DNA from: Flavobacteriales bacterium
GTDB taxonomy: Bacteria; Bacteroidota; Bacteroidia; CAIKAF01
Length of the DNA: 48,031 nucleotides
Direction: 5' to 3'
NCBI GenBank assembly: GCA_025451235.1
Contig: JANWKT010000020.1
Span: 1 to 48,031, forward strand
The notes under the pieces were generated by a model, which was not told the origin of the DNA, ran no database searches, and saw nothing but the letters and a program-made list of their open reading frames with translations. The position numbers were made by a program, and so were the translations under genes. Of the stretch, positions 14,675-23,650 are shown piece by piece (within the stretch, counting starts at the first letter, position 1; each line of letters starts with the position of its first letter).

Positions 14675-15526
14675 ATGAAAACCTCTAAACAAGTAAAACC
14701 AATCAGTGGATTTTTAATGCTCTTCCTACTTTTTTGTATGATGGGTGGAATTGTAGTTACAGCCGCATTTAAAATAATTCCCGGCACCATTATACTTAGC
14801 ATCATTAGTTTCTTTAGTATGCTTGGATTTATGGTAGTAGGCCCAAACCAATCGATGGTGCTTACCTTTTTCGGTAAATATGTAGGTACCGTTATGACCA
14901 ATGGATTTTTCTGGGCCAATCCTTTTTATACCAAAAGAAAAATCACCCTGCGTGCCCGAAATTTTGAAACCGACCAGTTAAAAGTGAATGATAAAATGGG
15001 GAACCCTATTTTAATTGCAGCGGTGTTGGTATGGAAAGTAGAGGATACTTATATGGCCGCCTTTAATGTGGATAATTACGAACAATTCGTGAAAATTCAG
15101 GCAGATTCGGCTTTACGTGAAATGGCCAGTAAATATGCTTACGATACTTTCGAGGATGAGCATGCTTCTGTAACTTTGCGTGGAAGTGGTGATGACATCA
15201 ACAATTTTTTAGAGAATTTAGTCTCTGAAAGGCTTTCGCTTGCGGGTATAAAAGTAGTAGAGACCAAGATCTCACACCTTTCTTATGCCCCTGAGATCGC
15301 ATCAGCCATGTTGCAAAGACAACAGGCCACCGCAGTGGTTGCTGCCCGTACTAAAATTGTGGAAGGTGCAGTAGGCATGGTAGAAATGGCCCTGGCTGAA
15401 TTATCGAAAAGAGGGATCGTTAACCTGGATGATGAGAAAAAAGCATCGATGGTGAGCAATTTATTGGTGGTGCTTTGCTCCGATAAGAGTGCAGCTCCTG
15501 TGGTAAATACCGGTTCATTGTATTAA
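14675..15526 (+). CDS. SPFH/band-7 domain membrane protein
   Basis: 283 residues. Two N-terminal hydrophobic segments (~12-35 and ~39-57) are followed by an SPFH domain starting at VVGPNQSMVLTFFGKYVGTV and containing NPFYTKRKITLRARNFETDQLKVNDKMGNPI and the helical YEQFVKIQADSALREMASKYAYD. The C-terminal part (RQQATAVVAARTKIVEGAVGM) is the coiled-coil region typical of stomatin-like proteins. Such proteins form oligomeric membrane scaffolds, and the family role here is unknown. It begins a small operon with a second membrane protein and an Arc-type DNA-binding protein; the same trio type is, as I recall, found in other bacteria. Confidence 0.85.
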   Translation: MKTSKQVKPISGFLMLFLLFCMMGGIVVTAAFKIIPGTIILSIISFFSMLGFMVVGPNQSMVLTFFGKYVGTVMTNGFFWANPFYTKRKITLRARNFETDQLKVNDKMGNPILIAAVLVWKVEDTYMAAFNVDNYEQFVKIQADSALREMASKYAYDTFEDEHASVTLRGSGDDINNFLENLVSERLSLAGIKVVETKISHLSYAPEIASAMLQRQQATAVVAARTKIVEGAVGMVEMALAELSKRGIVNLDDEKKASMVSNLLVVLCSDKSAAPVVNTGSLY

Positions 15527-15534
15527 TGGATGGT

Positions 15535-15580
15535 TAACCGTTATTCGTTGCCCCTCAAGGATCAAAACGAATAACGGTTA
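15535..15580. other. 15-bp perfect inverted repeat between SPFH gene and next gene
   Basis: TAACCGTTATTCGTT (15535-15549) and AACGAATAACGGTTA (15566-15580) are exactly complementary around a 16-base loop. There is no T-run after it, so it is more likely an RNA processing or stability hairpin, or a partial terminator, than a full intrinsic terminator. It would make the SPFH message separable from the downstream genes. Confidence 0.6.
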
Positions 15581-15600
15581 TCAAATAATAAAGAACTAAC

Positions 15601-16101
15601 ATGCAATTAGAAGACAGAACATATTACGAGGAGGAACAAAAAATGGAAGCAAACTGGATGCTGATCCTTATTCTTTTTACCAGTATCAGTGCCATCGTCA
15701 TTGCGGTTGCTTTCCTCTATAATTCGAAAGCAGAATGGCTTCAGATCAGTTTGGTAGCAGGTGCCATTATTTTCAGTGATGCTTTGATGGTTTTTTTGTT
15801 CAAGACCATGAAGCTGGAACTAGCCATTGTAAAAAATGGTTTATACTTTAAGATGTTCCCCTCTACCAAAAATCATTTTATTGATTGGAATGACATTGCA
15901 GCTTTAAGTATCCGAAAATCGCCTGTTAAGGGATATGGAAAAACTAAAAAATGGAGGTATGGGGATGTGTATGCCATGAACCTAAAAGTGGGACTGGAAC
16001 TTATTTTCAAGGATGGAAAGAAAAAGTTCTTTAGTTTAAAACATCCGGATGAATTTAAAAAGGCGTTCCGGAAACTGGAACTGCATTTACAAATAGAATA
16101 A
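15601..16101 (+). CDS. Membrane protein with two helices and a PH-like C-terminal region
   Basis: 166 residues. After a charged N-terminus there are two membrane helices (~19-42 and ~48-68), then a soluble part with ELAIVKNGLYFKMFPS, IDWNDIAALSIRKS and LELIFKDGKKKFFSLKHPDEF. The pattern of strands followed by a final helix (KKAFRKLELHLQ) resembles bacterial PH-like domains. It lies between the SPFH gene and the ribbon-helix-helix gene and presumably acts with them at the membrane. No enzymatic residue is recognised. Confidence 0.75.
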   Translation: MQLEDRTYYEEEQKMEANWMLILILFTSISAIVIAVAFLYNSKAEWLQISLVAGAIIFSDALMVFLFKTMKLELAIVKNGLYFKMFPSTKNHFIDWNDIAALSIRKSPVKGYGKTKKWRYGDVYAMNLKVGLELIFKDGKKKFFSLKHPDEFKKAFRKLELHLQIE

Positions 16102-16110
16102 AGGAAGCTT

Positions 16111-16278
16111 ATGTCTGCTAAAAAGAATTTTGTTTTAAGAATTGATGAGGATGTTTACAAGGCTCTAGAGAAATGGGCTGCAGACGAATTTAGAAGTGTA
16201 AATGGTCAAATTGAATACATGCTTTATCAATCCTTGAAGAATGCAAAAAGGGAACCTAAAAGGGTCAATAAGAAATAG
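16111..16278 (+). CDS. Arc-type ribbon-helix-helix DNA-binding protein, 55 residues
   Basis: A short gene starting with ATG at 16111, nine bases after the previous stop and preceded by AAGGAAG, a possible ribosome binding site. The product reads KNFVLRIDEDVYKALEKWAA (5-24), then a segment with RSVNGQIEYML: a beta strand followed by two helices as in Arc/MetJ-type ribbon-helix-helix proteins, with the family's SVNGQIE turn. The basic tail (KNAKREPKRVNKK) fits DNA contact. It is most likely a dimeric regulator of its own operon; the palindrome at 14518-14527 is a candidate site. It converges with the HTH-phosphatase gene, seven bases away. Confidence 0.75.
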   Translation: MSAKKNFVLRIDEDVYKALEKWAADEFRSVNGQIEYMLYQSLKNAKREPKRVNKK

Positions 16279-16285
16279 CAATGTA

Positions 16286-16972
16286 TTATTTGGAGAAATA
16301 ATGGTCGATCAATTCTCTAACACAAGTATCTCCCCCTTTTCGGGTGAGTATAACTGAAACAGAAGCCTTTACTTTTTCAGAGGCATCAGAAGGACAAGCA
16401 GAAAATCCTGCTTTTTTGATCACTTTCAAGTCATTCAGGTCATCCCCTATGTAAGCAACATTTTTATAAGTGATCTTTAATTCCTTTACCCATTTATCCA
16501 ATATAAGTTCTTTCTCGTCCAGGCCCACATATACCCTTTGAACACCCAATAGTTTAGCCCTGTTCTTGATCAACTTGGCATTGATCCCGTTGCTTAGAAA
16601 AGCCACCTGCATGCCCGATTTAACAAGTCCCTTGATGGCCAGTCCATCCTTTGAATTAAATTTTTTGTACTCCACTCCGTCCTCTGCATAATACATCCCT
16701 CCATCAGTTAACACACCGTCCACATCCAACACCAATAGTTTAATCACTTTTGCTTTGGATTCCTTTAATGGTAAATTGATATGGATCAAACTATCCAGCG
16801 GTACTTTAAAATATTTAGCAGCCAACAATACCAGGCTCAATGAAACCTTGGAGGGATCCTTCTCCACTTGCTGCACCTTTTTCTCTGTAACTTTTAATTT
16901 GGCAGCCAGCTCTTCAATGGAGAGCTGATGTTTTTTTCGGAGAAATTTAATATTTGAAGAAAGGAATTCCAT
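16286..16972 (-). CDS. HTH domain fused to KdsC-like HAD phosphatase
   Basis: 228 residues. Residues ~5-66 form an XRE-type helix-turn-helix (LRKKHQLSIEELAAKLKVTE ... LLAAKYFKVPLDSL). Residues 75-228 are a C0-type HAD phosphatase of the KdsC/KDN-9-phosphatase group: nucleophile and general acid in DVDGVLTD (D83, D85), TDGGMYY, KKFNSKDG, K154, and IGDDLND (176-182). At the second HAD motif the usual TGR is replaced by LSNG (S127 in place of Thr, no Arg), so the substrate may differ from Kdo-8-phosphate. An HTH on such a phosphatase is unusual. It is the last gene of the epimerase-CBS and DAHP-synthase-like cassette; the start lies one base after the preceding stop. Confidence 0.82.
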   Translation of the reverse strand: MEFLSSNIKFLRKKHQLSIEELAAKLKVTEKKVQQVEKDPSKVSLSLVLLAAKYFKVPLDSLIHINLPLKESKAKVIKLLVLDVDGVLTDGGMYYAEDGVEYKKFNSKDGLAIKGLVKSGMQVAFLSNGINAKLIKNRAKLLGVQRVYVGLDEKELILDKWVKELKITYKNVAYIGDDLNDLKVIKKAGFSACPSDASEKVKASVSVILTRKGGDTCVRELIDHYFSK

Positions 16973-16973
16973 G

Positions 16974-17975
16974 TTAAACGATTTTTCTGGAAACAGAGGT
17001 TGCTACTGCACCCAACGATTTATACAATACTGTAAACTCATCAAAATTTAATTGCTGCGAAGCATCTGACTTGGCAACGGCCGGATTAGGATGTGTCTCC
17101 ACCAATAAACCATCGATTCCCATAGCAACACAGGCTCGTGCCAGGTCGGGCACTCCGTACGCATAACCAATGGCATGACTAGGATCAAGAATAACTGGCA
17201 AGTTTGTATATTGTTTTAAATAGGCTACGCCACAAAGGTCCAGGGTAAATCTTGTTTTGGTCTCGAAAGTCCTGATCCCTCTTTCACAAAGCATTACATT
17301 CATGTTTCCTCCTGATAAAATAAACTCAGCCGATTGAACGAATTCCTGTAAAGTAGTTCCGAATCCTCTCTTTAACAAGACCGGTTTATTGGATTTACCA
17401 CAACTCTTCAAAATTCCATGATCATACATGGCCTTGGCTCCGATCTGTAAAATATCTGCATATTCAATGACTTCGTTTACATGTGTGGAGTCACGGATCT
17501 CTGTAATAATTTTCAACCCATATTTGGATCTCATTTTATCCAATAGTTTTAATCCGTCCAAACCCATTCCCTGAAAAGTATATGGGGAAGTCCGTGGCTT
17601 ATAGGCACCAGCTCTCAGTATACCAATTCCCAGCTTAACACATAGCTGCGCTGCTTGTTCAATTTGCTCTTCCGATTCCACAGAACAAGGGCCTGCAATC
17701 ACTACTGTATTTCCTGAATTTCCTCCAATGGTTATCTGGTCACTGAGCTGAACGGTACGGGTCTCGCTTTTATATTTCCTGCTTGCCAATTGAATATCAT
17801 CATCAAAGGGAACTGCGCTTAAAACAAAGGATGCATACTTTTCATCCAGTTTTTTGGTTTTATTAGGAGTAATCAATATAAAATTTCCATTCTCGCTGAT
17901 AACAAAAGCTTCTAACTCCTTTCCAAGTTCGTGTGCTTGGTTGCTGTTTACTTCAGGTTTTAAGGTAACGATCAT
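16974..17975 (-). CDS. DAHP-synthase-like (type I-beta) aldolase
   Basis: 333 residues. An N-terminal ferredoxin-like regulatory domain (~1-80) precedes a TIM barrel with GPCSVES (C97), KPRTSPYTFQG (126-136), LKRG (201-204), CERGIRTFE (230-238), DPSH (H267), VETHP (E293) and D304, i.e. all four metal ligands. Such enzymes join phosphoenolpyruvate to erythrose-4-phosphate to give DAHP. The PEP-contact motif that is usually IGARNMQNF reads IGAKAMYDH (178-186), with Lys for Arg, so the aldehyde partner or kinetics may differ. The gene overlaps the stop/start of the epimerase-CBS gene at 17975 and is followed after one base by the phosphatase gene, so it may serve a dedicated pathway instead of the shikimate pathway. 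Confidence 0.85.
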   Translation of the reverse strand: MIVTLKPEVNSNQAHELGKELEAFVISENGNFILITPNKTKKLDEKYASFVLSAVPFDDDIQLASRKYKSETRTVQLSDQITIGGNSGNTVVIAGPCSVESEEQIEQAAQLCVKLGIGILRAGAYKPRTSPYTFQGMGLDGLKLLDKMRSKYGLKIITEIRDSTHVNEVIEYADILQIGAKAMYDHGILKSCGKSNKPVLLKRGFGTTLQEFVQSAEFILSGGNMNVMLCERGIRTFETKTRFTLDLCGVAYLKQYTNLPVILDPSHAIGYAYGVPDLARACVAMGIDGLLVETHPNPAVAKSDASQQLNFDEFTVLYKSLGAVATSVSRKIV

Positions 17976-18979
17976 TATTCGCCTTTAATTAAATTATTAA
18001 ATGTAACTACTCCATGTAAAATATTGTCCTGATCAACTACGGGTAAAAATAGAATAGTTGCTTTGATATTTTTGATAAAACTAAGCATTTCCGAAACATT
18101 ATCGCCAAGTTTTATTTTGTAAGGTTCCTTATTAATCAGTTGATCCACTCCTATTGTATTCAATTGATGATGGTTCCTGATCAAACCTCTTCGAACATCC
18201 GCGTTGCTAATGATCCCGGATAGTTTTCCTACTGGATCAATTACAGCAGTGAAGCCCAGGTTATATTTCTCAATGGATTCCAATATTTCAATAAAGGATG
18301 CCGAAGAATTGATCAAAGGCAACTCCTCTTTTGTAAGCATGAACTCAGCAACCCCCGTATGCGACATCAGGCTTTCACTTTTTAACCGGTGCAATGCTCT
18401 TCCAATGGTATCTTTTGGGTTCACCAGGTATGATCCTGAAACAATAGAAAAAACACCCAGGTTCCTTAGCACGAAAGCCACCTCATCGGTAACCCCTCCA
18501 TCCACATGTATTTTTTTGTCGGGAAACAACGTCTTGAATTTCCGGATCTTTCTAAAATTCTCGGGATTGAATACGCCTCCGCTTTTCCCCGGAGTGGTGG
18601 TCATGAACAAAACAAATTCAAATGTTTTACTGAATTGTTCAAATACTTCGACAGGGGTTTCGGATACGATGGCTAATCCCAACTTAGATTTTATATTTGC
18701 TGGAACTGTGAAAGATGATTGTAAGTTTTCGTATTGAAAGGTAACAAGCTCAACATGGTTTTCCTGAATGCCTGAAAAGAATTTTTCGGGATCGGCAGAA
18801 ATGATATGAAGATCGATCGGGGTTTCACTAAGGGTTCTTATTTCTTTGATCTGATCAAATACGGATAGGTCATCATTACAATCAACATGCAGGTAATCCA
18901 CATGAACCGCATCCAGTTCTTTCACCAACTCATGAATTGATTTGGTTGTATTGGAAAATATAGAGGCTGATATTTTCAA
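17975..18979 (-). CDS. Pentulose-phosphate-3-epimerase-like barrel fused to KdsD-like CBS pair
   Basis: 334 residues. The first ~200 are a ribulose-phosphate 3-epimerase-like barrel: SASIFS (4-9), LHVD (H31, D33), DLH (H58), TTPGKSGG, HVDGG (D160) and VSGSYLV. The four expected metal ligands H31, D33, H58 and D160 are all kept. Residues ~207-334 are a pair of CBS domains (LMSHTGVAEFML..., GIISNADVRRGLIRNH, LHGVVTFNNL) that resemble the CBS tail of arabinose-5-phosphate isomerase KdsD, not free-standing CBS proteins. KdsD normally has a SIS isomerase in front; here an epimerase takes its place. It is expected in the cytosol, with CBS ligands such as nucleotides controlling it. It is followed directly by the aldolase and phosphatase genes. 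Confidence 0.8.
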   Translation of the reverse strand: MKISASIFSNTTKSIHELVKELDAVHVDYLHVDCNDDLSVFDQIKEIRTLSETPIDLHIISADPEKFFSGIQENHVELVTFQYENLQSSFTVPANIKSKLGLAIVSETPVEVFEQFSKTFEFVLFMTTTPGKSGGVFNPENFRKIRKFKTLFPDKKIHVDGGVTDEVAFVLRNLGVFSIVSGSYLVNPKDTIGRALHRLKSESLMSHTGVAEFMLTKEELPLINSSASFIEILESIEKYNLGFTAVIDPVGKLSGIISNADVRRGLIRNHHQLNTIGVDQLINKEPYKIKLGDNVSEMLSFIKNIKATILFLPVVDQDNILHGVVTFNNLIKGE

Positions 18980-22558: not shown

Positions 22559-23509
22559 TCACTTTCTCTTCATCACTTTCTCCACTGCATTCACAATATC
22601 AGGGGTATCCAATCCATATTTTTTAAGTAGGTCCAATGGTTTTCCACTTTCTCCGAAAGTATCATTCACCGCAACATATTCCTGTGGCGAGGGATGATGC
22701 ATGGCCAATACCTGGGCCACACTGTCACCTAATCCACCATTCCTCATATGCTCTTCAGCAGTTACCACGCAACCTGTTTTCTTTACTGATCTCAAGATGG
22801 CATCCACATCCAATGGTTTAATGGTATGTATATTGATCACTTCGGCATAAATTCCTTTTTCATTCAGTACTTCTGCTGCTTCGATCGCTTTCCAAACCAA
22901 ATGACCGGTGGCAATAATCGTAACATCACTTCCCTCCTGCATTAATTTTGCCTTACCGATGATGAAAGGTTCATCAGCATTAAATACAGGCCATGCGGGC
23001 CTTCCAAATCGCAAATAAACAGGTCCTACATGATCGGCAATGGCAATGGTAGCTGCTTTGGTTTCATTGTAATCGCTTGGACAAATAACTGTCATATTGG
23101 GTAACATCTTCATCATTCCCAGATCTTCCAGGATCTGATGAGTTGCTCCATCCTCACCTAAGGTAAGCCCGGCATGCGATGCACATATTTTTACATTTTT
23201 ATTGCTATAAGCGATCGATTGTCTGATCTGGTCATAAACTCTACCGGTACTGAAATTTGCAAAGGTGCCTGTAAATGGGATCTTCCCTCCTATGGTCAAT
23301 CCTGCGGCGATCCCCATCATATTTGCTTCAGCAATTCCTACCTGAAAAAAACGGTCCGGAAATTCTTTTTCAAATTCATTCATCTTGAGGGACCCGGCAA
23401 GGTCAGCTGTTAAGCCAACTACATTTGGATTTTTTCTTCCCAATTCTAATAATCCAACTCCAAAACCGCTGCGGGTATCTTTTTGTTCAGTAAATGTGTA
23501 TTTTTTCAT
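22559..23509 (-). CDS. Transketolase, C-terminal subunit
   Basis: 316 residues from the ATG at 23509 ([20 protein letters not shown]). It holds the pyrimidine-binding domain of thiamine-diphosphate enzymes ([17 protein letters not shown]-like region, here [17 protein letters not shown]) and the transketolase C-terminal domain ([20 protein letters not shown] ... [19 protein letters not shown]). In Bacteroidota transketolase is often split into N- and C-terminal proteins encoded side by side. Here the N-terminal half is not adjacent: upstream there are 340 bases of non-coding DNA with a 171-bp repeat element and then a reductase. The partner must be elsewhere in the genome, or this protein has another role. 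Confidence 0.88.
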
Positions 23510-23650
23510 TTCGATTATCATGATCACAAAAATAATTGATCAAATTCAGTAAAATTCAATTGTTGGTAAAAGGTTAATAATTGGTAGGACATGGGTTTGA
23601 TGTTTGAAGGGTTTGATATTCGATGTTAGACCACCGTTTTAGCGACTGTA

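Follow-up and report, generated by a model that had tools for sequence, protein, structure and literature searches.

A three-gene cassette in Bacteroidota and Gammaproteobacteria that probably replaces the first enzymes of Kdo synthesis

In most Gram-negative bacteria, lipopolysaccharide is anchored by the sugar Kdo. Kdo synthesis is regarded as an essential and invariable process, and two enzymes of the KdsD-KdsA-KdsC-KdsB pathway, KdsA and KdsD, serve as pathway markers and as drug targets. Here we describe a set of three genes found in a stretch of 48,031 nucleotides from a Flavobacteriales bacterium (hereafter the window), for which the best reading is a non-orthologous module that would supply CMP-Kdo. 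No published description of such a cassette was found in the open-access literature; earlier reports may exist in subscription papers.

The cassette comprises three open reading frames, named E, A and P, all located on the minus strand and transcribed in the order E, A, P (Table 1). They are tightly packed, with a one-base overlap between E and A (TAATG) and a single base between A and P. The packed cassette described in the initial annotation, with an epimerase-like barrel carrying CBS domains, an aldolase and a phosphatase with a helix-turn-helix domain, was thus borne out by the reading frames, their spacing and the Pfam and NCBIfam matches. Scanning the GTDB genomes with an alignment of E returned 339 related stretches, and the best 80, from Bacteroidota and Pseudomonadota, were examined. 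Cultured carriers include Thiohalophilus thiocyanatoxydans DSM 16326 and Brumimicrobium species. Among these 80 loci, A directly follows E on the same strand in 72 and P then follows in 62, several of the exceptions being contig ends, and E and A again share a single base in 51 of the 70 loci where this could be measured. Chance packing is excluded by these figures, and the conserved linkage that the initial annotation had proposed to look for in related genomes does exist. A sample of 395 genomes of the phylum contained one strong relative beside the window, which the GTDB scan shows to be an underestimate. Some loci depart from the common order. In two of them, P directly follows E, the aldolase being missing between them (L175:2005-3479 and L178:2277-3739). 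In genome G409, a universal stress protein gene directly precedes the cassette aldolase, with no epimerase-CBS gene between them at the locus and no KdsD match (L127:5863-7808).

Table 1. Coordinates of the cassette genes and their domains and motifs in the window.
Feature	Position	Strand	Description
Gene E	17975..18979	-	Rpe-type TIM barrel and CBS pair; proposed arabinose-5-phosphate-forming enzyme (KdsD slot)
E barrel, residues 1-202	18374..18979	-	PF00834, 98 bits; invariant H31, D33, C34, N35, H58, D160 (81 rows); Z 26 against solved Rpe
E CBS pair, residues 205-334	17978..18367	-	CBS part of TIGR00393; top CBS structures 4o9k, 3k2v, 3fna; nearest are KdsD CBS pairs
Gene A	16974..17975	-	Aldolase of DAHP-synthase type, ferredoxin-like domain at the N terminus; candidate Kdo-8-phosphate synthase (KdsA slot)
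A motif GAKAMYD, residues 179-185	17421..17441	-	GARNMQN in DAHPS, PAFLCRQ in KdsA
A motif DPSHAIGYAYG, residues 264-274	17154..17186	-	DPSHPAGRRS in DAHPS, DATHSVQ in KdsA
Gene P	16286..16972	-	HTH_3 domain and KdsC-type HAD phosphatase
P HTH_3 domain, residues 8-61	16790..16951	-	Pfam; N-terminal extension often missing in relatives
P KdsC domain	16304..16744	-	TIGR01670, 139 bits; 141 bits in genome search

The surroundings of the cassette also show some recurrent features. In four genomes (G405, G406, G408 and G409), it is preceded by a gene for a two-domain universal stress protein (L043:7562-9365, L044:9633-11490, L045:4350-6170) and adjoined by a nucleoside phosphorylase-like gene in divergent orientation; such company is unusual for a sugar-acid pathway. 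Two more genes follow it in conserved order in Crocinitomicaceae and G041 (L206:8681-11325; similarly in L176, L179, L196, L205, L207, L208 and L046), encoding a dehydrogenase-like protein of about 406 residues and a membrane protein of about 450-474 residues. Convergent to the cassette in the window (14675-16278) are a Band 7/SPFH gene, a gene for a 166-residue protein without a Pfam match and a short, ribbon-helix-helix-looking reading frame; the first two also adjoin the cassette in G407. The C-terminal half of a transketolase stands alone at 22559-23527, with no N-terminal half beside it, and is conserved near the cassette in G407.

Gene E encodes a protein of 334 residues with a TTG start, where relatives have methionine at the equivalent residue. 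Its barrel scores far over the Pfam cut-off for Ribul_P_3_epim (21.1 bits) and is followed by CBS domains. The match of E to the KpsF/KdsD model TIGR00393 (50 bits) is confined to the CBS part (model positions 157-267): the C-terminal CBS pair of KdsD/KpsF type is present, the SIS isomerase domain was not detected by TIGR00393, Pfam or structure search, and the barrel is that of Rpe. An AlphaFold model (mean pLDDT 92) gave Z scores of 24-26 for the barrel over Rpe and allulose-6-phosphate 3-epimerase, and the best matches of the CBS pair were those of arabinose-5-phosphate isomerases, of which 4o9k is reportedly a complex with CMP-Kdo, the compound in which the pathway ends. On the basis of the alignment, we take H31, D33, H58 and D160, invariant among 81 E sequences, to be the metal and catalytic positions of Rpe. 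C34 and N35 are likewise invariant, the position of N35 being a methionine in Rpe, and the phosphate-site glycines are retained. We infer that E would deprotonate a sugar phosphate beside its carbonyl. The possibility that E is an ordinary Rpe was rejected, given its score against the Rpe equivalog TIGR01163 (82.7 bits, under the cut-off of 212.6), the CBS fusion and another Rpe-family match in the same genome.

The aldolase A, of 333 residues, passes the DAHP synthase (DAHPS) models NF006421 (374 bits, cut-off 335) and TIGR01361 (328 bits, cut-off 268) and reaches 125.6 bits against the KdsA model TIGR01362, under the cut-off of 314. It was modelled by AlphaFold with a mean pLDDT of 92 and matches the Thermotoga DAHPS 1rzm over its full length, ferredoxin-like N-terminal domain included, at 39% identity. 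KPRT, CERGxRTFE and the metal ligands do not vary among 73 A sequences. In place of GARNxQN and DPSHxxGRR of DAHPS, the subfamily has invariant GAKxMYD and DPSHAxGYxYG; FL-DAHPS paralogues in three other cassette-bearing genomes (L225, L226 and L229) retain GARNAQN or a similar form. The enzyme had initially been called a C4-type aldolase, a label that fits its KPRTS motif, found instead of the KANRS of KdsA (KANRTS in the KdsA of relatives), and does not fit the remaining acceptor region, which is unlike that of ordinary DAHPS. Phylogenetic analysis placed A in a group of its own (92/93 support), on the DAHPS side and well apart from KdsA. The window's genome encodes a separate DAHPS-chorismate mutase fusion on contig C17, which covers the shikimate pathway. 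The initial annotation had named A being the sole DAHPS of the genome as an observation that would speak against its proposal, and A is not the sole DAHPS.

The third gene product, P (228 residues), combines an HTH_3 domain with a KdsC-type phosphatase. It scores 139.3 bits against the KdsC subfamily model TIGR01670 (cut-off 106.95) and 136.3 bits against the KdsC equivalog NF007019 (cut-off 208), and falls under the equivalog cut-offs of both KdsC and KDN-9-phosphatase. The N-terminal extension amounts to about 60 residues in some lineages and to zero in others; in G041 it has no Pfam match, unlike the HTH_3 domain of the window. In the gammaproteobacterial locus L151, the cassette phosphatase scores 149 bits with the KDN-9-phosphatase model against 125 with that of KdsC, both below the equivalog cut-offs. 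The same locus encodes a canonical KdsC as well as this phosphatase (L151:4248-4781 and L151:8125-8694). Since gammaproteobacterial carriers also have a canonical KdsC, P may duplicate its activity or have another substrate. A second KdsC-type phosphatase gene adjoins a NeuB-like synthase gene (L048:8103-9528; G000, contig C37), so the window's organism probably makes a nonulosonic acid as well.

The distribution of the cassette was compared with that of the known Kdo enzymes in 16 genomes of the window's order, belonging to six genera. E gives a strong match in five of them, and A is present in six. Neither KdsA over the cut-off nor the KdsD isomerase was detected in any of the six A-bearing genomes. 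In all ten genomes devoid of A and E, KdsA scores over the cut-off and a KdsD-type protein is present, the latter over its cut-off in six and just under it in four. KdsB, which activates Kdo, was detected in all 16 genomes (over the cut-off in 13) and WaaA in 14; the window's own assembly gave no match to WaaA, which is present in its congener. The initial annotation had noted the lack of a CMP-transferase, which is right for the window, but the same genome encodes KdsB outside it, at C17:194352-195068 (204 bits, cut-off 155). We further tested 50 E-bearing genomes from two phyla for KdsA, KdsD and KdsB. In this set, which is given without completeness values and to be read knowing that many of the genomes are metagenome bins, KdsA was over the cut-off in 0/50 (the matches listed reach 133 bits, the cut-off being 314), KdsD was found at an E-value below 1e-20 in 0/50, and KdsB was over the cut-off in 47. 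True KdsA proteins of the order score 332-377 bits, and the 50 genomes contain no borderline KdsA match. Replacement of kdsD-kdsA by the cassette in every genome tested, with KdsB kept, is thus strongly supported by these sequence comparisons, as is the earlier suggestion that the operon would follow the KdsD-KdsA-KdsC logic with different enzymes.

The gene environment links the cassette to lipopolysaccharide genes. kdsB is present in 12 of the best 80 loci (of 339): it directly precedes E-A-P in L159, follows E-A-P and a heptosyltransferase-like gene in L203 (Thiohalophilus) and comes after P in L167 (Halorhodospira sp.). A divergent arrangement of the cassette and kdsB-kdsC-lptC-lptA-lptB is seen in L147, L150, L151, L153, L155 and L186 (lptA being identified in L151 only), so that a canonical KdsC with adjoining LptCAB is found in six of the nine gammaproteobacterial loci. 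In E. coli, kdsD precedes kdsC-lptC-lptA-lptB, and the cassette therefore stands close to the place of kdsD. In the tree of E and A, the nine gammaproteobacterial rows group as a single clade nested among the Bacteroidota rows, and its sister group consists of four Flavobacteriales. We read this as a transfer into another phylum, after which kdsD and kdsA would have been lost; KdsB, as well as KdsC in six loci, stayed canonical. The gammaproteobacterial KdsB proteins score 288-314 bits, and KdsB aligns over its whole length with E. coli 3k8d. Because KdsB (314 bits) and KdsC (216 bits, over the cut-off of 208) of L151 are both canonical, the simplest product would be Kdo itself. The canonical KdsB of these carriers, together with the KdsC and LptCAB genes of the six loci, thus points to ordinary Kdo and away from the unusual ulosonic acid that had initially been suggested.

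We consider it likely that the cassette stands in, as a non-orthologous module, for KdsD-KdsA(-KdsC) and provides KdsB and WaaA with Kdo, probably via arabinose 5-phosphate. E, as an Rpe-type metal-dependent barrel, would form D-arabinose 5-phosphate through an enediolate, acting either by 2-epimerisation of ribose 5-phosphate or by isomerisation of ribulose 5-phosphate; since it must hand an aldose to a PEP aldolase, arabinose 5-phosphate is the product to be expected. Its KdsD-type CBS pair would probably exert feedback control on this committed step. A, a DAHPS-type enzyme with a rebuilt acceptor region, would then join PEP and arabinose 5-phosphate into Kdo 8-phosphate, accepting this sugar despite having KPRTS in place of KANRS, and P would take off the phosphate. 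The unchanged KdsB would activate Kdo with CTP, and WaaA would transfer it to lipid A. The substrates of E and A, and hence the exact ulosonic acid, are putative.

Other explanations were weighed against the same evidence. A could be an extra DAHPS for aromatic or secondary metabolism with a coincidental link to Kdo, as its scores over the NCBIfam DAHPS cut-offs would suggest. This is highly improbable in view of the separate DAHPS-chorismate mutase, the linkage to kdsB, the changed acceptor motifs and a distribution complementary to that of KdsA and KdsD, with no KdsA over the cut-off in the 50 E-bearing genomes. The complementary distribution and the changed motifs also led us to reject an ordinary second DAHPS. 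It is decidedly unlikely that E has an accessory or regulatory role, with arabinose 5-phosphate or another pentose phosphate coming from an unrelated enzyme: E directly precedes A in 72 of the best 80 loci, its catalytic residues are invariant, and KdsD is missing from all 50 E-bearing genomes tested. In favour of such a role are the presence of A without E in G409, the strong divergence of E in G408 (33%) and the fact that, to our knowledge, no Rpe-fold enzyme forms arabinose 5-phosphate.

The cassette could also feed KdsB and WaaA another 3-deoxy-2-ulosonic acid, such as a C7 acid from erythrose 4-phosphate or a Kdo epimer from ribose 5-phosphate, which would alter the inner core. KPRTS and the full set of DAHPS catalytic motifs in A, an acceptor region matching neither DAHPS nor KdsA, the L151 phosphatase being nearer to the KDN-9-phosphatase model than to KdsC, and the life of G409 without E are all consistent with this idea. 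We hold it to be unlikely, given the canonical KdsB, above all in Gammaproteobacteria, the KdsD-type CBS pair on the first gene and the downstream Kdo machinery already present in the recipient phylum at the time of transfer.

If the replacement reading is right, two phyla would have a further set of first enzymes for Kdo synthesis, put together independently and transferred between them, which would fill a gap in many environmental genomes, so that a missing KdsA is no ground for calling cassette-bearing genomes Kdo-negative. The replacement would imply that the Rpe fold has taken on a new reaction and that Kdo-8-phosphate synthesis arose a second time, from DAHPS, providing a natural test of how the substrate choice of aldolases evolves. 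A broader proposal, which we make tentatively and regard as unlikely, is that several Bacteroidota lineages and the gammaproteobacterial clade make their lipid-A-linked ulosonic acid by an unrecognised route, based on a new Rpe-fold reaction forming arabinose 5-phosphate (or on a different sugar being fed) and on a recruited DAHPS, so that in some lineages an isomer or a homologue of Kdo may be formed.

Compared with the known enzymes, E shares with Rpe and allulose-6-phosphate 3-epimerase the barrel, the metal and catalytic His/Asp residues and the phosphate-site glycines, and differs by its fused CBS pair, the invariant DCN signature and a score far under the equivalog cut-off. A shares the full-length fold, the catalytic motifs and KPRTS with the Thermotoga-type DAHPS (AroA I-beta with a ferredoxin-like domain, 1rzm), whereas its GAKxMYD and DPSHAxGYxYG motifs are its own, and its operon and genome context is that of Kdo rather than shikimate. 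P has the HAD fold and the DxD and GDDxND motifs of KdsC and KDN-9-phosphatase and scores over the TIGR01670 cut-off, but in the window it bears an HTH_3 domain and stays under both equivalog cut-offs. As for the KdsD-KdsA-KdsC-KdsB pathway as a whole, the first enzyme of the cassette is an Rpe barrel instead of a SIS isomerase, its aldolase belongs with DAHPS within the family and not with KdsA, and its phosphatase often has an N-terminal extension. The two systems place the genes for steps one and two in the same order (kdsD-kdsA in G396, G400 and G402, as E-A in the cassette), and they have in common the CBS pair on the first enzyme, the KdsC-type phosphatase and the same KdsB and WaaA downstream.
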